The position numbers were made by a program, and so were the translations under genes. A stretch of DNA of 42,855 bases from a virus, in the IMG/VR virus record IMGVR_UViG_3300049811_000069, positions 1 to 42,855 of that record; one strand, 5' to 3'. The notes under the pieces are model-generated. The model was not told the DNA's origin. It saw nothing but the letters and a program-made list of their open reading frames with translations, and searched no databases. Below, piece by piece: positions 11,978 through 39,226 of the stretch; the first letter of the stretch is position 1, and each line of letters begins with the position of its first letter.

Positions 11978-12142
11978 GCCGAGCTTAGCATAGCGTCGGA
12001 CTTTGTATTGAATACACCGAAAACTAAGCCTCAGGGCGTCGGCTGTGTTTGTGAGATTACCGTCGAACAAATCAAGGTGGGCCTTGATTATTTTGTATTC
12101 ACAAATTTCAAGCGGGCCAAACTCTGGAGGCCAGTCGGTCAT
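11894..12142 (-). CDS. Second Fis-type HTH protein, convergent with the first
   Basis: The protein has 82 residues from the ATG at 12142, which overlaps the methylase stop (ATGA); a GTG at 12157 is also in frame. The motif AHLDLFDGNLTNTADALRL is the same Fis-type HTH pattern as in the gene at 11621 (both have FDGN-x3-TA-x-AL). It is the last gene of the leftward operon, and its end overlaps the convergent gene by 84 bases. The two look like paralogues that serve the two opposing transcription units. Confidence 0.7.
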   Translation of the reverse strand: MTDWPPEFGPLEICEYKIIKAHLDLFDGNLTNTADALRLSFRCIQYKVRRYAKLGLPIQWRHRADTIKTLCDDDATKTPARR

Positions 12143-13074
12143 TTTTTCATCTCCCACTTCTCAATTCGGTATGGCGGCCATGAGATGAAGGGGTCTTTCG
12201 CCTTCGCAAAACAATCGAACGCGCCACTATCGTAGAGCTTCTGTATCTCTTCTCGCACTGGCACACGGTTGAAACGTCTCCAGACTACCTCGGTGCGCTT
12301 GCGGTTCTGGTCGCTTTCGTCCTGCTTCTTTGAGCGGTCATAGCCTACGCGCCCACTGCTTGATGCGTTCGCCTCAAACTCGAAGCGCTCCCAATCGCTT
12401 GGAATCTTCACATCCGGCTGGTCGTAATTGGATAGCAGAAAGCTGCCATGACAAGCGTGTAATGTGCCCACCAGTTCACGGAAATGGTCGAGAGTGTAGC
12501 CGTCATAGTGCCCTTGGTCTGCGTCGGGATACGGCGGGTCGCAGTAGAAAAACGTTTGTGGGCTATCAAATTGCTTGATCACTTTCAAAGCGTCATCACA
12601 AGAAACTTGCACACTTGCCATGCGATCAAGATATTGCGGAAGTTCTGCTATTTTGTTCGCCCACGCTGCGGATAGATTGCAGCTAAAAACGGCGCGACGC
12701 CATCCGCCGCCTATCATGTGTGAAAAACTTTGCTGCACGTTCACATAATACCGGCGGGCTAGCTCAAGAGGCGTGCCGTTTTCTAAGTCTTTTGCGGTTT
12801 GGTGCTCCGCTTCTGAGTTCAATGTTAGCTGTATTTGCCTAACAAGTTCCTCGCCGTTCTCGCGCATTTGCTGATAGAAATTTATCAGACGCTTGTCGTG
12901 GTCGTTTATCACTTCGCGGTAGTTGTTGTTGCTCACGTTGGGCCGCGGCTTTGCAAAGAGCACCGTAGCACCGCCACAGAACGGCTCAACATAAACCGTG
13001 TGCCTTGGAATTAGTGGGATGATGTGATGTGCCATGCGTTGCTTTCCGCCGTAATATGAGATTATGGGTTTCAT
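12139..13074 (-). CDS. D12-class DNA adenine methyltransferase (Dam-like)
   Basis: The protein has 311 residues from the ATG at 13074, which overlaps the stop of the gene before (ATGA); an upstream start at 13113 is less likely. Motifs of the D12 family are complete: ISYYGGK (residues 5-11), VEPFCGGATVLF (29-40, the AdoMet-binding loop) and CDPPY (D179-Y182, the catalytic motif of N6-adenine methylases). It would methylate adenine in phage DNA, probably to escape host restriction or mark phage DNA. The start and end of the gene are coupled to its neighbours. Confidence 0.92.
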   Translation of the reverse strand: MKPIISYYGGKQRMAHHIIPLIPRHTVYVEPFCGGATVLFAKPRPNVSNNNYREVINDHDKRLINFYQQMRENGEELVRQIQLTLNSEAEHQTAKDLENGTPLELARRYYVNVQQSFSHMIGGGWRRAVFSCNLSAAWANKIAELPQYLDRMASVQVSCDDALKVIKQFDSPQTFFYCDPPYPDADQGHYDGYTLDHFRELVGTLHACHGSFLLSNYDQPDVKIPSDWERFEFEANASSSGRVGYDRSKKQDESDQNRKRTEVVWRRFNRVPVREEIQKLYDSGAFDCFAKAKDPFISWPPYRIEKWEMKK

Positions 13075-13268
13075 TCCCCACCCCCTTCGAGTGCTTTCTC
13101 GGCTTCTAGCCAAACATGTATCTCCATGTATGGGAGCTTCAGAATGGATACCACTTTTTTAATGTTTGTTTTAAGGTCATTGGCTTCTAGCATGTCCATT
13201 GCGTCAATCGTGTTGCCTTTGAACGTAAATGCTAATAGTTGACCAACCCAATAAACTTGGTACTTCAT
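13071..13268 (-). CDS. Small hypothetical protein upstream of the methylase
   Basis: The protein has 65 residues with an AAGGAG ribosome site five bases before the ATG. It has a beta start (YQVYWVGQLLAFTFKGN) and a helical end. Its stop overlaps the methylase start (ATGA). I recognise no family. Coupling to the methylase suggests co-expression only. Confidence 0.6.
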   Translation of the reverse strand: MKYQVYWVGQLLAFTFKGNTIDAMDMLEANDLKTNIKKVVSILKLPYMEIHVWLEAEKALEGGGE

Positions 13269-24947: not shown

Positions 24948-25383
24948 ACGCTATGACTTCAAGAACAATCCCAAAGACCGACAGCTTGGAATCTCCATGT
25001 ACATCGTTGCAGGGGGTCGCTATTCCGATGACCCGAAAAATCCGCACCATCGAGGAATGGCGTGGCGTTTAGGGCTAAGTATTGACCAGTTAGCAAGATA
25101 TAGAGAAGAGGATGAGACATTTGATGCGGAGTGTGAAGCCGCACTAGCCGCTGAAGACTTCAATTTAAGACAGCGCGCAATCAAGGGCTGCTTCAATAAA
25201 GACGGTGAGGTTATTGCTGAGAAGCTCCTAGCACGCTTCTTAGAATCTCGTGGCGTCATCGAAAAAGAATCGAAAGGCCCTACAACAGCGCTGCAACTCA
25301 ATGCAGGAAGTGGCGGCATACAAGTGGCCTTCGTAGAGCCTAACGCTCAGCTTGTCGAGGCAATTGATGGCCAAGCGGATTGA
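24934..25383 (+). CDS. terS: Terminase small subunit
   Basis: The protein has 149 residues. Helices in the N-terminal half (NPHHRGMAWRLGLSIDQLARYRE) form an HTH-like DNA-binding region. The middle (EDFNLRQRAIKGCFNKDGEVIAEKLLARFLES) is the oligomerisation helix pair typical of small terminases, and the last 30 residues form the beta tail that contacts the large subunit. It lies immediately before the large terminase and overlaps it by 17 bases. It should choose the packaging start on phage DNA. Confidence 0.82.
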   Translation: MAMPKRYDFKNNPKDRQLGISMYIVAGGRYSDDPKNPHHRGMAWRLGLSIDQLARYREEDETFDAECEAALAAEDFNLRQRAIKGCFNKDGEVIAEKLLARFLESRGVIEKESKGPTTALQLNAGSGGIQVAFVEPNAQLVEAIDGQAD

Positions 25384-26587
25384 GCTTCCTGCAAAACTAC
25401 AGAGTTTAATCCACACCACAGCACGCTACAACGTGATTCATGGAGGACGTGGAAGCGCCAAGTCTGAGAGTGTCGCCCGTGCTTTAATCATTGCATCAAT
25501 GCAGGGCTACCAACGCATTCTCTGTTGTCGTGAGTTTCAAAGCTCCATACGAGAGTCAGTGCATGCGCTCCTTAAAAGCGTTATCGTTGAGCATGAGCTG
25601 CAAGCTTATTTTGAAGTGACCTATGTTAGCATCAAGTGTGTTGTGAATGGCTCAGAGTTTGTCTTCGCTGGCCTCGCAGAACATTCTGTCGACTCTATTA
25701 AAAGTCTATTTGGCTTTACCATCGTATGGATTGAAGAGGCCCAACGCCTTTCCCGTCGCTCGATGGATTTGCTCCTGCCAACCATTCGTGCAAAAGACTC
25801 AAAGTTTTATTTCACCTTCAACCCCGAGCTTGAAACCGACCCCGTGTACAAGCGATTCGTAGGCTCACCGGACCCGCAGGATGACGCCCTTGTTATCGAG
25901 ATGAATTACTATGACAACCCGTGGTTTCCCGACGTTCTCCGCACTGAAATGGAAGCCTGCAAACGTCGATCGCTCGAAGACTATCTGCACATTTGGGCAG
26001 GCAAGACTCGAACATTCACCAAAGCAAGCATCTTGGGACACCTAGTCAAAGAGCAAGCTTTTGAGCCTGAGTCTTCATGGACTCCTTACTACGGCATCGA
26101 CTGGGGCTTTGCAGCAGACCCCACAGCCTGTGGCCGATTGTTCTATCACGACCGTAAGCTCTACATGCGAAATGAGTTCTATGCTCATGGAATAGAAATC
26201 AACGAATATGCTACTGCGTTTCGCTCTGTGCCTGGTGCAGACAAGCATGAGCTGTGGGCTGACAACTCTCGACCAGAATGCATCAGCTATCTGAACAACC
26301 CCGTCAACTATCCAGACCGCAAGCCGCTCAACGTCAAAGCCGCACCAAAATGGTCGGGCTCTGTTGAAGACGGCATTGCATGGCTTCGCACTCTCGATGC
26401 TATAATCATCCACCCAGAATGTAAGAACGCTCTCTATGAAGTGCCCCGATGGTCGTGGAAAGTGGACAAAGTGACCGGAGATATTCTCCCTGTGCCTGCT
26501 GACGGAAACGACCATATTCCAGACTTAATCAGGTATAGCATGAATAAGTTTATCAAAAAGAAATTCACCTCGTTCGATATTCTTTGA
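25367..26587 (+). CDS. terL: Terminase large subunit (PBSX/XtmB type)
   Basis: The protein has 406 residues from the ATG at 25367; a TTG at 25352 is also in frame. The ATPase motor shows HGGRGSAKS (Walker A, 26-33) and IVWIEEA (Walker B with catalytic Glu, 119-125). The RNase H-like nuclease begins with YYGIDWGFAADPTAC (first metal Asp near 245) and continues with LWADNSRPECI. The enzyme cuts concatemeric DNA and pumps it into the prohead. Circular permutation of the assembly would agree with headful packaging, but that is an inference. Confidence 0.95.
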   Translation: MAKRIELPAKLQSLIHTTARYNVIHGGRGSAKSESVARALIIASMQGYQRILCCREFQSSIRESVHALLKSVIVEHELQAYFEVTYVSIKCVVNGSEFVFAGLAEHSVDSIKSLFGFTIVWIEEAQRLSRRSMDLLLPTIRAKDSKFYFTFNPELETDPVYKRFVGSPDPQDDALVIEMNYYDNPWFPDVLRTEMEACKRRSLEDYLHIWAGKTRTFTKASILGHLVKEQAFEPESSWTPYYGIDWGFAADPTACGRLFYHDRKLYMRNEFYAHGIEINEYATAFRSVPGADKHELWADNSRPECISYLNNPVNYPDRKPLNVKAAPKWSGSVEDGIAWLRTLDAIIIHPECKNALYEVPRWSWKVDKVTGDILPVPADGNDHIPDLIRYSMNKFIKKKFTSFDIL

Positions 26588-26597
26588 GGAGAGAAAT

Positions 26598-27452
26598 ATG
26601 AAAATTGCGCTCGTCTCTGATTCCCTTCGTTCCGGCTGTCACATCTATCGAGGCCTGCCTTACAAAAAGCTCGTAGGTGCCACAATCACAGAATATGACT
26701 TGTCCAATTTTCTGTTCTCAAACTGCCTGCTAGACAACGACCTTTTCGTTGTGTTTCGTCCCCACCTGCCTGCTCATCTCGCTGTCATCCAGATGGCTCA
26801 CGCAATGGGAAAAAGAATCATCATCGATTGGGATGACGACTTTACACAAGTACCGGACTGGAACCCGAACTACAAAGTGTTCAAAAAAAGCGCTGAGAAC
26901 GTCAAGGCGTGTTCAAGAGAGGCCAACCTTGTCACTGTATCAACTGAAGCTTTAGCTGAGCGCGCGCTTGCTTGGGGGGCTAAAAAGGTTGCAGTTATTA
27001 AGAACGCCGTTGATGACTGTTACAAGGCTTTCCCAAAGCTAGAACGTCAGCCCATTGTCGTGTGGCGAGGGTCGAAAACTCACGCCGGAGACGTCGAAGT
27101 GGGCAAAGCAAAATTCTTCGAACTCGCTCAGACCCACAAGTTTGTTTTCTTCGGGCGACCTCCAGCTTGGGCTCGCAACATGAATCACGAGCATGTGCCT
27201 GAGACGCATTACGTCACCTACATGGCTCTCTTGCATCGTTGTGCCCCTGAGTTCATGTTCGTGCCACTCGCTGACGTTCCTTTCAATCATGCGAAGAGCG
27301 ACATCGCCGCGCAAGAGTGTTACGCTGTAGGAGCAAAGCTCATTCACAACGGCGTCGGCGAATATTCTGGACTGCCAGATTGGCAAGAGCCTCGGTGGTT
27401 GAGTACAGTTAACGAGCAACGTGTTTTAGCAATTCAGGAGGCTATGAAATGA
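26598..27452 (+). CDS. GT-B-type glycosyltransferase inserted between terminase and portal
   Basis: The protein has 284 residues. It starts with KIALVSDSLRSGCHIYRG, a Rossmann start of GT1/GT4 families, then RIIIDWDDDFTQVPDWNP and a second domain with VWRGSKTHAGD, FGRPP and SDIAAQECYAVGAKLIHN, which holds the nucleotide-sugar site. The gene sits between the terminase and portal genes, with ATGA overlap to the portal, so it is made with structural proteins. It may glycosylate a virion protein such as the capsid. That placement is unusual and differs from the GT-A enzyme at 14239. Confidence 0.78.
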   Translation: MKIALVSDSLRSGCHIYRGLPYKKLVGATITEYDLSNFLFSNCLLDNDLFVVFRPHLPAHLAVIQMAHAMGKRIIIDWDDDFTQVPDWNPNYKVFKKSAENVKACSREANLVTVSTEALAERALAWGAKKVAVIKNAVDDCYKAFPKLERQPIVVWRGSKTHAGDVEVGKAKFFELAQTHKFVFFGRPPAWARNMNHEHVPETHYVTYMALLHRCAPEFMFVPLADVPFNHAKSDIAAQECYAVGAKLIHNGVGEYSGLPDWQEPRWLSTVNEQRVLAIQEAMK

Positions 27453-28822
27453 AAAAGAAAGTTGCACCAATCAAAAAGAAGGTGCTCAAAAACTCCCAAG
27501 TGAAAAACAACGGAGCGCTCCAACAGTTCACTCAGCAGGCGTGCAGACCTTCTGAAGTCTCACAGCTTGACCTCATCCAAAACAATCTGCGTTATGGTGC
27601 GCTCACCTTAAACCCCATGCTCATCACAGAAATGCTGCAAGAGCACGCGCTAGTACGTCGGTTCATTCGCCAGCCGATTGAGGACGCATACAGAGGTGGA
27701 GTGCAAATAAAATGTGACGAGTTCTCCGCCGATGATATACACAAACTTCAGCAAAAGATGGAAGAGTGTAACGACATTCAACTTCTCATCGAAGCTCGTG
27801 AATGGGCTGAAGCTTTCGGTGGAGCGGGCATCATCGTCAACGCTGGGCAGGAGTTTGACAAAGAATTTTCGCTTGAACAAATCAAGCAAGATTCCAAATT
27901 GGAATTTTACGCTGCAGACCGCTGGGAGTTGAATCAAACAACCACAGGCAATGCGCTTGACCAGACCGTAGACCCGCTCTCAGACGTGCCGTACCTTTAT
28001 TACTCGCACAAGCTGCACCGCTCTTGTGTTTTGCGACTAGAAGGTCAACGTGCCCCCTCTCGTATTAGAGGCCAATTCTCAGGCTGGGGTGTCTCTCGTT
28101 TAGAGGGCATCGTGCGTTCATGGAATCAGTACCTAAAGCACCAAGAGATAGCCTACGAACTTGCTGACGAGTGCAAGCTAGATGTTTTCCGCATGGACGG
28201 CTTCAACGAAGCGCTTGCAAGTGCTGACGGTGTCGCTCAAGTCACCGCTCGTGTGCAGCTCTCTGCAGAATTAAAGAACTACAAAAACGCTCTGGTCATG
28301 GACAAAGACGATGAATTCGAGCAGAAGAGCATATCATTCTCAGGCATTCCTGAGATGATGAACGAGAACCGCAAGGGCATCTGTGCAGACCTCGGAACAC
28401 CGATGACCAAGCTCTTTGGCCTTTCCGCTTCTGGCTTCAACAGCGGAGAAGACGACATCGAGACTTGGAACGCCAAGATTGAAAGCGAAGTGCGCTCGAA
28501 AGACCGCAACGCTTTATTGTTCATGATTCAAGCTCGCTGTAAGCAACTCTTCGGCTATGTGCCTGACTCCATCTCGTTCGAGTTCAAGTCCCTTCGTGTT
28601 CTCTCAGAAGAGCAAGAGCAGACGATCAAAGATAAGAAGCTCGACAGGATTTTACGTCTCAAGCAAGAGGGATTGATACCTGCCCAAACCGCTATCGGAC
28701 TTATCAACGCTGAAAAGATTTTCGCACTAGACTTAGAAGAAAACGAGGTTGAGGATGTTCAACAAGAAACTGAGCAAGCCGAAGGAACTGGAACCCGTAG
28801 CGACGCCGGAAAGCCACTCTGA
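27449..28822 (+). CDS. Portal protein (DUF1073-type)
   Basis: The protein has 457 residues. A DLIQNNLRYGALTLNP start, FIRQPIEDAYRGG, AREWAEAFGGAGIIVNAG and the stretch MMNENRKGICADLGTPMTKLFG are typical of DUF1073 portals. The C-terminal 60 residues are acidic and helical. Twelve copies would form the ring through which DNA passes. The next gene starts 68 bases before this stop, in another frame, as is common for portal and MuF genes. Confidence 0.9.
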   Translation: MKKKVAPIKKKVLKNSQVKNNGALQQFTQQACRPSEVSQLDLIQNNLRYGALTLNPMLITEMLQEHALVRRFIRQPIEDAYRGGVQIKCDEFSADDIHKLQQKMEECNDIQLLIEAREWAEAFGGAGIIVNAGQEFDKEFSLEQIKQDSKLEFYAADRWELNQTTTGNALDQTVDPLSDVPYLYYSHKLHRSCVLRLEGQRAPSRIRGQFSGWGVSRLEGIVRSWNQYLKHQEIAYELADECKLDVFRMDGFNEALASADGVAQVTARVQLSAELKNYKNALVMDKDDEFEQKSISFSGIPEMMNENRKGICADLGTPMTKLFGLSASGFNSGEDDIETWNAKIESEVRSKDRNALLFMIQARCKQLFGYVPDSISFEFKSLRVLSEEQEQTIKDKKLDRILRLKQEGLIPAQTAIGLINAEKIFALDLEENEVEDVQQETEQAEGTGTRSDAGKPL

Positions 28823-30629
28823 AGACCTACGGCTTGAAGTAAAACGGTTGCTCAAAATTCTGTTTTTTGACCCCATGCTCACCGAGCTTGAGGCAACGAA
28901 GAACAATTCAAAATCAAAGAACAAGCTCATCAAAAAGATTGAAGACGGTGATGTGACCTATCAGGGCGACACGTTCATTGGCGACCTTGATGCGATGGTT
29001 GGACAGATTCTAAAAGGGGCTGGAGCAAAGTTCTCACGACCGAACAAAGGCTGGAAAATTCCCCTAGCTCGTATGCCGCTTGAGATTCAGGCTGCTGTTG
29101 ATAAGCAACGGGCTAGTCAAGACAGACTCGAAAAGCACGCAAGAGAAATGATTGCTAGAGTTGAACAAACAGCGCTAAATATCATGCCCAAGGTTTCGCT
29201 TGACATGCTCGCAGAGGCCGAAGCCCGCAAGATGCTCTACATGGTTGACAACACCATTCCTAATGCTCTCTCTGTGCAACCGAAGCTCGACAAAGACCAA
29301 GCTGCAGCGCTTGCCAAGAGCTACACAGACAACGTCAAGCTATCGATTGTTGGCTTCATCCAAGACGAGACGGCGCGCTTTCGCAAAAACATCCTGCCAG
29401 AAATTCGTAAGGGCATGGGACGCAAAGATTTGCAGGAGTACGTTAAGCAACGGCTCAAGGTCGGAAACACCCGCGCCAAGTTCATTGCACGTCAAGAGAC
29501 GAGCCTCTTCACTTCTAAAATAAAAGAAGTACAATACAGGCAGGCAAACATTCGGAAGTATCGGTGGAAGGCCATCGGCGGCAAACGTGGTGACGGGCGA
29601 ACTCGTGATGCCCACATGGAGGCTCACGGGAAAGAGTTTTTCTGGGACCATTCCAAAAATAAGAACCCTGTGCGAAACTCAGAGGGACAGCCGGTGCATC
29701 CAGGCCAAGATTTCAACTGCTTTATTGGTGATACATCAATCGAACTCATCGGTGATATTGTCAGAGCCTACAAACGCAGATATGAAGGCACTATCATAAG
29801 ATTCAAGAGCAACGCAGGGAGATGGACTTCTGTAACCCCGAATCATCCAATACTGACCACTCGTGGGTGGGTTGCTGCGAAGCATCTGAATGAGGGCGAC
29901 GAGTTGGTTCAACGCTTCAATTCCGATGTCATTAACGTTTTTCACAGTAAGATAAATTACAGACATCCCACGGCTAGTGAGATCTATGATTTTTTTGCGG
30001 TCTCTAATTCTTTTGAGAGGTCGTGTGGAAGCTATCAACAATTCCACGGCGATGGAATCGAACACCAAGAAGTCAATATTATAACAGTCAAGAGCGAATT
30101 GAGGAGTGAAAGAGATACCGTTGGCAACAAAAAAGTTGGCGATTATGTCTTCGCCAGCCCCAACGTGACACATGCTTTTTTGGCATCCTTGGGCGACTCT
30201 TCTTCGCTCTTCAATAGAACACTTACGACCTTTAGTAGCGAGGTGTGCGGCCTTGACCTGATTGCCTCGCATCTCGGGACTCATGCTCGCCCACTTAGTT
30301 TTCTCAGACTCACTTTGCGTTCTGAGGGTGATGCCACGCTCTTTCAGTCTAATATAAATACTTCCTCGTGCGATTCCATAGCGTTTAGAAAGTTCATTGA
30401 CACTTATTCCTTGCCTATAGAGAGAACAGATCTCCTCAGAAGGAACATCTTTGCGGTTGTGGGCTACCAGTCCTTTTTTGAATCTGTTATGATTTCTGAG
30501 ATCAAGCATGAAACATTCTCCGGTGATGTGTTTAATTTTGAAACGACGGAGAACGTATACATTGCGAATCAGGTAATTGCAAGTAATTGCCGTTGTATCG
30601 CCGTCCCAATAGTTGAGGAAATAATATAA
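28755..30629 (+). CDS. MuF/SPP1 gp7-like minor head protein interrupted by an intein
   Basis: The precursor has 624 residues from the ATG at 28755; a TTG at 28749 is possible. Residues 1-321 are a helical head-morphogenesis domain (GMGRKDLQEYVKQRLKVGNTRAKFIARQE as segments) that reaches the family motif HPGQDFN. The sequence then enters an intein (322-611) and returns as CRCIAVPIVEE. Joining the flanks gives HPGQDFN-CRC, the normal end of this family, and a mature protein of 334 residues. Such proteins sit inside the prohead next to the portal. The intein uses Cys at position 1 and Asn at its end, with Cys as the next extein residue. Confidence 0.92.
   Translation: MFNKKLSKPKELEPVATPESHSEDLRLEVKRLLKILFFDPMLTELEATKNNSKSKNKLIKKIEDGDVTYQGDTFIGDLDAMVGQILKGAGAKFSRPNKGWKIPLARMPLEIQAAVDKQRASQDRLEKHAREMIARVEQTALNIMPKVSLDMLAEAEARKMLYMVDNTIPNALSVQPKLDKDQAAALAKSYTDNVKLSIVGFIQDETARFRKNILPEIRKGMGRKDLQEYVKQRLKVGNTRAKFIARQETSLFTSKIKEVQYRQANIRKYRWKAIGGKRGDGRTRDAHMEAHGKEFFWDHSKNKNPVRNSEGQPVHPGQDFNCFIGDTSIELIGDIVRAYKRRYEGTIIRFKSNAGRWTSVTPNHPILTTRGWVAAKHLNEGDELVQRFNSDVINVFHSKINYRHPTASEIYDFFAVSNSFERSCGSYQQFHGDGIEHQEVNIITVKSELRSERDTVGNKKVGDYVFASPNVTHAFLASLGDSSSLFNRTLTTFSSEVCGLDLIASHLGTHARPLSFLRLTLRSEGDATLFQSNINTSSCDSIAFRKFIDTYSLPIERTDLLRRNIFAVVGYQSFFESVMISEIKHETFSGDVFNFETTENVYIANQVIASNCRCIAVPIVEEII
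29718..30587 (+). mobile_element. Intein of 290 residues in the minor head gene
   Basis: The intein runs from the Cys codon at 29718 to the Asn codon at 30585-30587. Splicing block A is CFIGDTSIELIGD, block B has SVTPNHPILTTRGWV (TxxH motif), block F is FSGDVFNFETTENVYIANQ and block G ends IASN before extein Cys. The residue before the terminal Asn is Ser rather than the usual His. No LAGLIDADG or HNH motif is seen in the sense frame, yet about 140 residues separate the splicing blocks beyond mini-intein length. That extra stretch is the complement of the antisense endonuclease gene. Splice borders are firm because the flanks reconstitute a conserved family motif. Confidence 0.9.
29736..30509 (-). 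CDS. Homing endonuclease (HTH plus Vsr/EDxHD-like nuclease) encoded antisense inside the intein
   Basis: The protein has 257 residues from the ATG at 30509, which has GGAGA eight bases upstream; the frame stays open to 30668. Residues 35-60 are an HTH (SVNELSKRYGIARGSIYIRL). Residues 119-195 look like a PD-(D/E)xK-type nuclease of the Vsr-like homing family: GEDIIANFFVANGIS, SFTPQFALDCYNIDF (D146), IAVELL (E156), then RKKIIDLTSRGMSVIYL. A PPTSGQYWMIRG end follows near residue 220. The codons are exact complements of the sense intein codons, so the DNA is read on both strands. I recognise the family from memory of similar phage proteins; catalytic residues need an alignment. Confidence 0.75.
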   Translation of the reverse strand: MLDLRNHNRFKKGLVAHNRKDVPSEEICSLYRQGISVNELSKRYGIARGSIYIRLKERGITLRTQSESEKTKWASMSPEMRGNQVKAAHLATKGRKCSIEERRRVAQGCQKSMCHVGAGEDIIANFFVANGISFTPQFALDCYNIDFLVFDSIAVELLIASTRPLKRIRDRKKIIDLTSRGMSVIYLTVKNVNDIGIEALNQLVALIQMLRSNPPTSGQYWMIRGYRSPSPCVALESYDSAFISAFVGSDNITDEFD

Positions 30630-31276
30630 TGGATTTAACTCAAGTGCCAGATAGAAAACTAGCAGCAATTAAAGCAAGCCTAGAGCTTCGTGCAGGCTCA
30701 GACCCTCGTGCAAAAACTCTTATGCAAAAGATAGCAGAAGAGGCAAAGCGTAGAGGGCTGAAGAATGCTGCCCCCAAAGATGAATTAAACAAACGAATAG
30801 AGGAAAAGAAAATGAGCAACAAAGAGACAATTCAGAAAGCGTTAGAGAGAGCCATTGAGCTGAAGGCAGACCCAAGAGTGATTGAGTTGCTAAAGGCTCA
30901 GTTGAATAATGACATGAACAATTCAAAAACATTCATGGAAAAATTCTCCTACAAAGGAGTCGATTGCGTTCTCAAAAGCGTTAGAATGGAACCAACAAAA
31001 GTTCGTCCAGAAGGTTACACCACATACGAGGCAATCTGTGAAGACCTAGGCTTACGCTCAAAGGTTGCTGATAGGGTTGGAGATGCAAAGGCACAGCTCG
31101 CAAAGCAAATCGACGAAAGCATCAAGGATAGAGACAACTCAAAGGAGAACGAGATGAACAAATGCAACGCAATGAAGCGCAAAATTCTCGACAGCACATA
31201 CAGCAACAGCGTCAAGGCAAAGGCGTTGAAGAAGGTGATGGAGCAAGAAAGGAAAGAGAATGAAAAAACTCGTTAA
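30629..31276 (+). CDS. Hypothetical head-region protein
   Basis: The protein has 215 residues, charged and mostly helical (LTQVPDRKLAAIKASLELRAG; KALERAIELKADPRVIELL). An internal in-frame ATG at 30812 could give a shorter form. The C-terminal half has a small beta region (SYKGVDCVLKSVRMEPTK) and a basic tail. It starts on the last base of the minor head stop and overlaps the next gene by 17 bases. Its place between the MuF and protease genes suggests an internal head or assembly protein; I recognise no family. Confidence 0.62.
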   Translation: MDLTQVPDRKLAAIKASLELRAGSDPRAKTLMQKIAEEAKRRGLKNAAPKDELNKRIEEKKMSNKETIQKALERAIELKADPRVIELLKAQLNNDMNNSKTFMEKFSYKGVDCVLKSVRMEPTKVRPEGYTTYEAICEDLGLRSKVADRVGDAKAQLAKQIDESIKDRDNSKENEMNKCNAMKRKILDSTYSNSVKAKALKKVMEQERKENEKTR

Positions 31277-32741: not shown

Positions 32742-33710
32742 ATGTCATACAAGCCTCTAATTATGAATAATGCACAAGGTGCAAAGCAGATTATCACCAC
32801 GCTCACCGCTGTGGCTCAAAAGGTTTCTGAGCAGAAATTCTACGAAATTCCGTTCGCAGAATTTGTTCCAGTTATCCCTGGTGTTGGTGCGTTCGATGTG
32901 AACATCCTTAACTGGCGTTCGTTCTCCAAAGACGGTGGATTCGAGAAGGGTCTCGTCGGCTCGAACTCTAACCGTGCTCAACGCTCGCAGTCCGACGCTG
33001 TGTTTGATGCAGTGCTGCAAAAAACTCAGTTCTGGGCAAAAAACATAGAATGGTCTGCAATCGAACTTGAGCAAGCTGCAAAAGCAAACAATCTTTTCTC
33101 GCTTGTTGAAGCTCGCGAAATGGCTCGTAAGAAGTCTTGGGACTTGGGCATCCAGCGCGTTGCGTTCCTTGGCCTCGACAACGACGCCGGAATCAAGGGC
33201 TTGCTCAACAACGCTTCTGTCTACAACGACACTGCAACAATCACTGTAGCTCTTAAGAACATGACCACATCTCAATTGCAGACTTTCATCTCTGCTGTCT
33301 ATGAGAAATATCGTGCGAATTGTAACCGCACCGCTAAGCCTTCTAAGTTCATTATTCCAGAAGCCGAGTTCAATGGCCTCCATAGCTTTCCAGACCTGCA
33401 GTTTCCCTTTAAGACTCGCTTCGACATCATCGAAGAGATGTTCAAAAAGCTCACAGGCAATCAAGGCTTCAAAATCATGGCTTGTGCGTACTGCGACAAG
33501 GCAAACTTCGACGGAACTAACAACCGTTATGTGTTGACTGTTGACGATCCGACCTCGTTGGCTCTTAACTTGCCTATCGACTACACGACCACTCAAGCAG
33601 GAACTGAAGACGGATTCAGCTGGGTTAACACCGCTTACGGCCAGTTCTCTGGTGTTGTTATGCTTCGTGACCTTGAGACTTATTACTTCTCGAACACCTT
33701 GTCCCTCTAA
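32742..33710 (+). CDS. Major capsid protein (DUF2184-like, HK97 fold)
   Basis: The protein has 322 residues. The sequence VAQKVSEQKFYEIPFAEFVPV, then TQFWAKNIEWSAIELEQA, RKKSWDLGIQRVAFLG and KFIIPEAEFNGLHSF, follows the DUF2184 capsid family. The end, AYGQFSGVVMLRDLETYYF, is the strand-rich P-domain close. It has no visible pro-region, in line with a separate scaffold. An AGGAG site lies upstream; as the most abundant virion protein it should be the most strongly translated gene of the operon. Confidence 0.88.
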   Translation: MSYKPLIMNNAQGAKQIITTLTAVAQKVSEQKFYEIPFAEFVPVIPGVGAFDVNILNWRSFSKDGGFEKGLVGSNSNRAQRSQSDAVFDAVLQKTQFWAKNIEWSAIELEQAAKANNLFSLVEAREMARKKSWDLGIQRVAFLGLDNDAGIKGLLNNASVYNDTATITVALKNMTTSQLQTFISAVYEKYRANCNRTAKPSKFIIPEAEFNGLHSFPDLQFPFKTRFDIIEEMFKKLTGNQGFKIMACAYCDKANFDGTNNRYVLTVDDPTSLALNLPIDYTTTQAGTEDGFSWVNTAYGQFSGVVMLRDLETYYFSNTLSL

Positions 33711-37765: not shown

Positions 37766-39226
37766 ATGGAAATCGGTCAACTATTCGTAAAGCTAAAGCT
37801 TGTCTCTGACAAGGTTAACGAAAATACAACTAAGAAGTTTGTAGGCAATCTAAAGGGAATGAAAGAAAAAGCAATGGACTTAGCTAAACAGGCTAAGGTT
37901 TTGTTGCAATCAAAGTTCTCTCATTTCTTCAAAGAATCAGAGTTTGCAAGCGTTGGCTTGCTTGGAAAAATGGCAGACATAATTGGCAAAGCAAACATGA
38001 TGAGACTTGCAATCATGGGTGCCGTTGCGGGAATGATTAAACTGACGTCTAGTGCTGCAGAAGCTAGTGAACACCTGTTCAAATTCTCAATCAACACAGG
38101 GATGGACACTCAAGCACTGCAGCGCTGGCAAGCTCAAGCCGGACAAGCTGGAGTACAAGCAGAAGAGGTTGCGGACTCATTCAAGAATCTGCAGCGTAAA
38201 TCGATGGAAGTTCAAATGGGGCAAGGTGACGCTGGAGCTTTTCAGATGTCAGGCGTGAACTGGTTTGCAGACGCTCAAACCCAGATGAAACAAATACAGG
38301 CAATGCTCAAGAATCGTCCTGCTGCAATGGGAACGAAACTCGCAAGCGACATGGGATTGTCTGAAGAAATGATCTCATTCCTTCGCATGAAGGATTCACT
38401 TGAAAGCGCTGACGAGAATTTGATATTAAGCGAAAAAGAAATCGCAGAGCTAAAAGACTTCTCACTAAAATTCAAAGGCACTTGGTACTCGTTCCAACAG
38501 ACGCTTGTCAAGATTGGTGCGATGATTCTACCGATAACCAAGCCCTTCATCGCTTTTGCTATGCGACTCATGAAAATGACAACGCAGTTCACAGCGTGGA
38601 TGAATGAAATACCCGCAAGAAAGAATGGAATTATCACAGCAGTTGCCGCAATCGGAACAGCTCTCGCAGTTGCCTTTTTTCCTGCAACAGCAACAGTGCT
38701 AGGAATCGGTGCAGTGATTGCCGGAATACTTCTCATCATGGAAGACATTGCAACGTTCCTTCGTGGCGGTGACTCACTCACTGGCGACCTAATTAACGGT
38801 GCAGGCGGTGCAGTCAAAAGCGCATTCGGTGGAGTAATTGATTGGGTGCGTGAGAACTGGAAAATGCTGCTTGATTGGATGTGGACTGAAGTCAAAAACT
38901 TCGGTGAGCTTATCTGGTCGCTCATTAAGGGCATTGCAGGCTTAGGATTCAAAATTGGAGAATTGGCTAGCGACGGCATCAAAGGTGTTGCTGCAAGTGC
39001 ATGGGAAGGCTTAAAAGGCTTGGCTTCTGACGCTTGGAAAGGATTAAGCGGGCCAATGCCCTCTGCTCCCTCAATGGCTCTCGGAGCTAGTGGCGGCATG
39101 GTTCAGAACGTACAAATTCAAGTTGACGGCTCGAAAGACCCGAAGGCTGTGGGCGAAGAGGTTTCCCGAAGATTGCGACAAGAAACTTCACAAGCGGTGT
39201 ATCAAATGCCGAGACAGGAGCACTAA
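37766..39226 (+). CDS. Tail tape measure protein
   Basis: The protein has 486 residues, long and helical, with a conserved hydrophobic stretch in the middle (about residues 287-330: AVAAIGTALAVAFFPATAT, then IGAVIAGILLIMEDIA). A tryptophan-rich amphipathic part follows (FGELIWSLIKGIAGLGFK), then a glycine/alanine-rich end. Size suggests a short tail, about 70 nm by the usual 1.5 angstrom per residue rule. An AAGGAG site precedes the ATG. Tape measures cross the host membrane at infection; the hydrophobic part may do so. Confidence 0.86.
   Translation: MEIGQLFVKLKLVSDKVNENTTKKFVGNLKGMKEKAMDLAKQAKVLLQSKFSHFFKESEFASVGLLGKMADIIGKANMMRLAIMGAVAGMIKLTSSAAEASEHLFKFSINTGMDTQALQRWQAQAGQAGVQAEEVADSFKNLQRKSMEVQMGQGDAGAFQMSGVNWFADAQTQMKQIQAMLKNRPAAMGTKLASDMGLSEEMISFLRMKDSLESADENLILSEKEIAELKDFSLKFKGTWYSFQQTLVKIGAMILPITKPFIAFAMRLMKMTTQFTAWMNEIPARKNGIITAVAAIGTALAVAFFPATATVLGIGAVIAGILLIMEDIATFLRGGDSLTGDLINGAGGAVKSAFGGVIDWVRENWKMLLDWMWTEVKNFGELIWSLIKGIAGLGFKIGELASDGIKGVAASAWEGLKGLASDAWKGLSGPMPSAPSMALGASGGMVQNVQIQVDGSKDPKAVGEEVSRRLRQETSQAVYQMPRQEH

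Follow-up and report, generated by a model that had tools for sequence, protein, structure and literature searches.

Can one stretch of phage DNA encode a protein-splicing element on one strand and, on the other, the homing endonuclease that mobilizes it? This question is raised by a minor head gene in a 42,855-nucleotide stretch of tailed-phage DNA (IMG/VR virus record IMGVR_UViG_3300049811_000069), which was analyzed at its full length and is called the window here. An initial annotation, made from the sequence alone, had proposed that the gene contains an intein and that a homing endonuclease gene lies wholly within this intein on the complementary strand. Our analysis indicates that the interpretation was largely right. 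We put at about 0.9 the probability that the element is a mobile intein that divides splicing and homing between two DNA strands; its expression, splicing, cleavage activity and target site are what we infer from the sequence features described below.

An intein in a MuF-like minor head gene

The sense-strand features and the neighboring phage genes are as follows (coordinates are those of the window).

25352-26587: terminase
27449-28822: portal
28749-30629, plus strand: MuF-like minor head gene including the intein, a single continuous ORF (PF04233, TIGR01641)
28749-29717, plus strand: N-extein, MuF-like (SPP1 gp7-type) minor head protein (PF04233, 2.8e-10; TIGR01641, 2.5e-12)
29718-30587, plus strand: predicted intein of 290 codons, from C1 to SN/C+1 (open frame, profile matches, fold matches to solved inteins)
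29835-29858, plus strand: block B, TPNHPILT
30042-30053, plus strand: FHGD motif, residues 109-112 (conservation of at least 90% among the aligned sense proteins; complementary to IAVE, residues 153-156 of the nuclease)
30099-30470, plus strand: sense stretch without predicted fold, residues about 128-251 (pLDDT 30-45; opposite the N-terminal half of the nuclease)
30471-30587, plus strand: predicted C-terminal splicing segment, blocks F and G (pLDDT 86-97)
30588-30629, plus strand: C-extein CRCIAVPIVEEII and stop codon, within the continuous ORF
32742-33710: major head protein

The window also encodes a phage DNA methyltransferase (12139-13113, minus strand; PHROG_56, 2.5e-63). MuF host proteins with added domains were seen at related loci, namely an ADP-ribosyltransferase (PF03496) at L097, a NUDIX domain at L142 and a fused portal at L136.

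The insert is open over all 290 codons and has intein-type ends, as initially annotated, and it joins the host residues at ...GQDFN/C and ...IASN/CRCIAVPI (the slash marks the junction). The ends match the intein profiles TIGR01445 (4e-5) and PF14890 (2e-6), in both cases under the curated cut-offs of NCBIfam and Pfam. The residues of a class 1 intein, namely C1, T40 and H43 (in the TPNH of block B), N290 and C+1, are all present in the window copy; C1, T40, H43 and N290 are invariant or at least 90% conserved in a sense alignment of 65 related inteins, and Cys occupies position +1 in nearly all loci of the family. The penultimate residue is Ser, not His. In the AlphaFold model of the intein, the ends (residues 1-70 and about 252-290) are confident, with pLDDT above 90, and the top PDB matches of this model are solved inteins, TliVMA being the best.

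Sense-frame domain searches between blocks B and F detected no LAGLIDADG, HNH or other nuclease match, that is, no in-frame endonuclease. The window has no Rfam match, which argues against a group I or group II intron, and the host ORF is unbroken from 28749 to 30629, which argues against a fractured gene with a split intein. On the basis of its sequence and predicted structure, the sense insert is a class-1-type intein, and it is predicted to splice.

An antisense gene related to homing endonucleases

The features on the complementary strand are given below.

29736-30509, minus strand: putative antisense homing endonuclease gene, 257 amino acids and stop (ORF, profile and fold match, selection)
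30339-30440, minus strand: helix-turn-helix (HTH), residues 24-57 (PHROG_1303, 4.5e-6; HTH_7, 7e-4; helices in the model)
29838-30158, minus strand: Vsr-like nuclease domain, residues 118-224 (3r3p by profile and by fold)
30042-30083, minus strand: predicted catalytic core, Y143-N-I-D146 ... A154-V-E156 (Y143, D146 and E156 invariant in 87 members)
30518-30521, minus strand: Shine-Dalgarno (SD)-like GGAG inside block F codons (FSG), 8 nt upstream of the nuclease ATG (30509)
30621-30650, minus strand: possible promoter-like site, weak (9/12, consensus scan only)

The minus-strand frame had been correctly placed in the initial annotation: it runs from 30509 to 29736 in exact codon register with the intein, its start adjoins block F, its stop lies 18 nt inside the intein, and 774 of the 870 intein bases (about 89%) are common to both frames. 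The length of the ORF was set aside as evidence, because domain-less antisense ORFs of similar length occur in the same window. Useful controls are an ORF of 279 amino acids opposite the major head protein (32757-33596, minus strand) and one of 274 amino acids opposite the tape measure gene (38275-39099, minus strand); neither had any domain match, and both are probably mechanical. The characteristic GQYWMIRG end (29858-29835) is present and forms a modelled beta-strand (nuclease residues 219-224), but its codons are exactly complementary to those of block B, and it was therefore not counted as independent evidence for a nuclease.

The predicted HTH was borne out by the profile matches and model helices listed above. 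A profile of 87 members of the antisense family matches the catalytic domain of I-Bth0305I (3r3p, 2.9e-6) as well as 3hrl (6.6e-7), and domain matches among the members include MTES_1575 (40/87), Vsr (2/87) and NUMOD1 (2/87). Apart from the invariant residues, E120, N144 and A154 are at least 90% conserved in the family, and all of these are kept in the window copy. The 17 divergent minus proteins were too diverse for pattern searches, so that subsets were used instead. The AlphaFold model of the window nuclease has a pLDDT of 87, and its best PDB match by Foldseek is again 3r3p, with a probability of 1.00 and a TMt of 0.62, the E-value being only 6e-3. The evidence supports the view that the antisense frame encodes a genuine, conserved protein that is related, by profile and predicted fold, to the homing endonuclease I-Bth0305I. 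The case in which the minus product resembles no nuclease, which would have told against the initial annotation, is excluded by these matches.

With regard to the nuclease family, the Vsr-like part of the initial proposal held, whereas a strict EDxHD label is not justified for the window copy, because the histidine of GGxWH is absent. The family consensus VAVEVxGGxWH contains this His, whereas the window copy reads ELLIASTRP, without WH after the catalytic Glu. In addition, the window copy has Lys at position 173, where most members have Arg. Judging from these residues, we call the window nuclease I-Bth0305I-like rather than a strict EDxHD enzyme, and the activity of the window's own copy is uncertain given Lys173 and the absent WH.

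In none of the records examined is the antisense gene annotated as a nuclease. The record of Snoke has an annotated intein of the same family and no annotated antisense gene. An annotated 'hypothetical protein' that overlaps the nuclease in vB_StyS-sam lies in a different frame and was rejected as another gene.

At 121 of 128 non-redundant loci, the nuclease start codon is complementary to the codon for His in the sense motif HVYNLE. The codon for this His is CAT in 109 loci and CAC in 12, against an extein background of 49/51%. An SD-like sequence was found in 97 of the 128 loci, and the Leu of HVYNLE is CTC in 85 (background 19%). In the window, the ATG sits slightly further toward the nuclease-coding side than this typical start. 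From these codon counts, both the start codon and the SD-like sequence of the nuclease appear to be favored by selection. A promoter scan of the minus strand gave weak promoter-like sites only.

Selection on the two strands

Between the window and its nearest relative, IMGVR_UViG_3300032289_001975, the differences in the intein fall at sense codon positions 1/2/3 in numbers of 39/9/30, and the minus protein is 91% identical, compared with 84% for the sense protein. Over 14 independent pairs, the changes at sense positions 1/2/3 amounted to 920/239/561 in the overlap, as against 61/33/187 in the intein tail that the nuclease does not overlap, 672/468/1614 in the N-extein and 368/309/599 in the C-extein. 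Given that the overlap varies mostly at the antisense third position and the flanks at the sense third position, a shadow ORF is rejected.

The initial annotation had suggested a dual-frame comparison with homologues, and its outcome agrees with the proposal. Calculated from single-change codons of the 14 pairs, omega was 0.52 for the sense frame and 0.18 for the antisense frame in the overlap, whereas the corresponding values were 0.07 and 1.37 in the intein tail and 0.07 and 0.95 in the N-extein (overall ranges outside the overlap, 0.07-0.21 and 0.95-1.37). Judged by these substitution patterns, the antisense frame is under purifying selection. The N-terminal fifth of the intein (blocks A and B) is constrained in both frames, and the sense omega comes close to 1 across much of the region facing the N-terminal half of the nuclease in the same pairs; these per-bin values are rough, because the class of changes that is synonymous in both frames is small in each bin.

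Codon usage was also examined. The codons TTA, CTA and TCA, which create stops in the antisense frame, are absent from the 1883 Leu and 2155 Ser codons of the sense frame at 89 non-redundant loci, but make up 20% and 15.5% of these codons in the exteins of the same loci; this set was ascertained via the antisense protein, and a sense-first search gives the same picture. In the window intein, these codons are used for none of 20 Leu and none of 29 Ser. At the catalytic site, the (V/I)AVE of the nuclease is the complement of the sense FHGD, and the antisense codons are GCC for A154 in 70 of 74 cases and GTG for V155 in 67 of 68 (background 39% and 15%). The sense residues of FHGD thus appear, from conservation and codon choice, to be selected as well as the nuclease AVE, with constraint at the nucleotide level as a possible alternative.

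Distribution and probable mobility

Searches with the minus protein identified related elements in phages or prophages of Salmonella, Escherichia, Vibrio, Klebsiella, Pseudomonas, Gordonia, Rhodococcus, Helicobacter and Aggregatibacter, in a Streptomyces plasmid and in many IMG/VR contigs. The nuclease lies inside an intein at about 200 loci in all, and the host frame is kept open in all nested relatives. The sense frame, together with the antisense frame, was open through the whole match at 136 of the 139 loci found via the antisense protein (duplicates included; L070 was left out for a frame-shifted match). When the sense C-terminus only was used as the query, all 80 of the 80 loci found carried the antisense nuclease, a figure in which some enrichment is possible since HVYN, which is complementary to the nuclease start codon, forms part of the query.

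Several variants were observed among these loci. The same intein and antisense nuclease family occurs in BEU35 (L015), as compared with Snoke (L003), at a second, upstream MuF site (TSTT/C...N/CRARDG). In REQ3 (L017), L053, L054 and L059, the intein seems to begin with Ala or Gly instead of Cys (HPN/A, HPN/G, HPR/G). One gene in each of L214 and L225 apparently contains two inteins, each with an antisense nuclease of a different subtype. At L219, a divergent intein that seemingly starts with Ala (HHN/ALATGTQVLTG) is accompanied by an antisense nuclease type ending in VALELDGRGHA; this sequence suggests that the opposite-strand layout may extend beyond one intein lineage.

A broken minus frame inside an intact intein was the arrangement that the initial annotation had named as contrary to its proposal. 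It was found in two related contigs only (L056 and L057), where a stop lies inside the nuclease; such cases are as expected from occasional decay. Apparent minus-strand stops in L129, L131 and L143 were rejected as breaks because they lie at the C-terminal end, as was that in L219, which precedes the start codon.

In Acinetobacter phage IME285 (L010, 455-1348) and its IMG/VR relative (L046, 2884-3891), the nuclease is intact and free-standing, and the sense frame contains 10 and 13 stops, respectively. The two copies are near-identical and are counted as one case. The IME285 protein, annotated merely as a hypothetical protein, is similar to the antisense-frame translation from a Vibrio phage intein (E-value of 9e-34 over 286 residues), and each copy is arranged tail-to-tail with a MuF gene that has no intein and ends in ...PMCKCRAKLIIEIPDNLINQ. 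They fall within a group of nested copies in an unrooted tree, with a support of only 90/90. They may represent either an escaped or an ancestral form.

We also searched for empty sites. When the two flanks of the STM-ZS intein were joined and used as a query, 22 other phage records (including some GenBank/RefSeq duplicates) matched at one place, over at least 80% of the query. The site is cleanly empty in 20 of the 22, in which the match crosses the junction with unchanged length (597-600 nt). Between the window and its nearest relative, the intein is 84-95% identical per 87-nt bin, and the host gene is 80-87% identical beside the junction and 40-65% beyond 240 nt. This identity profile is as expected if the intein was transferred together with some flank; conservation of the MuF domain would also contribute.

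Proposed mechanism and alternative explanations

As initially proposed, the best reading of the sequence assigns splicing to one strand and homing to the other. Translation of the sense strand would give a MuF head protein precursor, in which intein residues about 1-70 and about 252-290 would form the splicing domain, excise the insert and restore the head protein. The complementary strand would act as a gene in its own right, with a separate start codon and ribosome-binding site. Its product, an HTH joined to a Vsr-fold nuclease, would cut an intein-less MuF allele near the intein site, and repair of the cut allele would copy the whole element in. Plausibly, a nuclease encoded on the opposite strand need not follow the head protein in amount or timing, and the splicing fold may also be spared an inserted folded domain.

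The view that the minus ORF is a product-less shadow, cast by codon bias and a conserved sense intein, draws on the domain-less ORFs of 279 and 274 amino acids that arise in exact register elsewhere in the window, on GQYWMIRG as the complement of block B, and on the ability of conserved sense motifs to mimic antisense similarity. It is nevertheless extremely improbable, since the overlap is most variable at antisense third positions and the flanking DNA at sense third positions, and since free-standing homologues exist in which the sense frame is broken. Moreover, the sense middle has no predicted fold, whereas the antisense model reaches a pLDDT of 87, and this protein has a nuclease profile and fold match and a start codon and SD-like sequence that appear favored. 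We consider it very unlikely that the sense insert is a tolerated in-frame insertion in MuF, as proposed for the ShiLan insertion (see below), and not a functional intein: the penultimate Ser in place of His and the intein matches under the Pfam and NCBIfam cut-offs would fit such an insertion, but C1, T40, H43 and N290 are conserved family-wide, Cys is found at +1 in nearly all loci, the sense omega is 0.07 in the C-terminal blocks, and the top fold matches are inteins.

It may also be asked whether the nuclease is real and yet not the homing enzyme of this intein, being instead a free gene acting elsewhere or one domesticated for regulation or defence, so that the intein would be immobile. 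The target site and cleavage are predicted from sequence, free-standing copies lie beside intein-less MuF genes, and the window copy is without the majority-consensus WH, all of which would be compatible with such a role. However, the nuclease lies inside the intein at about 200 loci, including the second MuF site, and matches the fold of a homing endonuclease; related phages have exact empty sites, intein similarity exceeds host-gene similarity, and even the free-standing copies adjoin the same target gene. This explanation is therefore very unlikely, and we favor a mobile intein with its homing enzyme on the opposite strand.

Relation to known systems

The element has in common with conventional inteins, such as PI-SceI and TliVMA, splicing ends of the type of blocks A, B, F and G and, as proposed here, mobility by homing. 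Those inteins encode the endonuclease in frame, as one domain of a single polypeptide, whereas in the window the sense middle has no predicted fold and the nuclease is on the opposite strand. Dassa et al. in 2009 reportedly described fractured genes with split inteins and an intein-associated family of Vsr-like homing endonucleases. In that system, the endonuclease gene splits the host gene and the intein, whereas the window intein ORF is continuous.

The likeness to I-Bth0305I and the EDxHD or Vsr-like enzymes lies in the catalytic domain (by profile and fold), in the modular HTH and in the NUMOD1 domain of 2 of the 87 members. I-Bth0305I was deposited as a mobile-intron protein and is listed among group I intron enzymes (PMC3943268); in contrast to this intron enzyme, the window nuclease is nested in an intein and is without the WH of its family consensus. 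Antisense homing endonuclease genes occur in nuclear group I introns, as in Didymium I-DsqI (PMC9548176). There too, a homing gene lies inside a splicing element, opposite to the strand of the host gene, but that splicing element is a ribozyme and only one protein is encoded, whereas the window element would encode two proteins on the same DNA. In the ShiLan insertion of phage DNA methylases, an HNH endonuclease is hidden out of frame (PMC11855218). The insertion is likewise a phage homing insert that leaves the host frame open and encodes its nuclease in a different one; unlike the window element, it has the nuclease frame on the same strand, encodes an HNH enzyme, and has no splicing domain and no detectable ribosome-binding site.

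For overlapping frames in actinobacteriophages, the ShiLan paper cites a preprint by Gosselin et al. 2025 (bioRxiv 10.1101/2025.01.02.630785) and Gorbalenya 1998 (Non-canonical inteins). As far as the preprint can be judged from its subject, which is non-canonical phage inteins, it may include an arrangement of the window type, and Gordonia phages carry such elements. No intein with an antisense homing endonuclease is described in the literature searched, the scope of which did not extend to these two works, and priority for the opposite-strand arrangement is uncertain.

We lean, with some reservation, towards the broader reading that these elements constitute a widespread and previously undescribed class of inteins. 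In such a class, splicing and homing would be encoded on opposite strands in exact register, selection would act on both of the complementary motifs AVE and FHGD, block F would contain the start codon and ribosome-binding site of the nuclease, and the free-standing copies would represent the nuclease leaving or preceding the intein.

Long protein-coding antisense overlaps have rarely been demonstrated, and functional evidence for them tends to be thin. In the present case, the overlap is between a known enzyme fold and a splicing domain and recurs in many phages, with internal non-overlapped controls and free-standing homologues. Some inteins that look empty, because they have no in-frame endonuclease, may therefore carry a nuclease in antisense. 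In addition, the element offers a natural system for studying the selection of two proteins, including one active site, on complementary strands, and it would also allow splicing to be separated genetically from homing.
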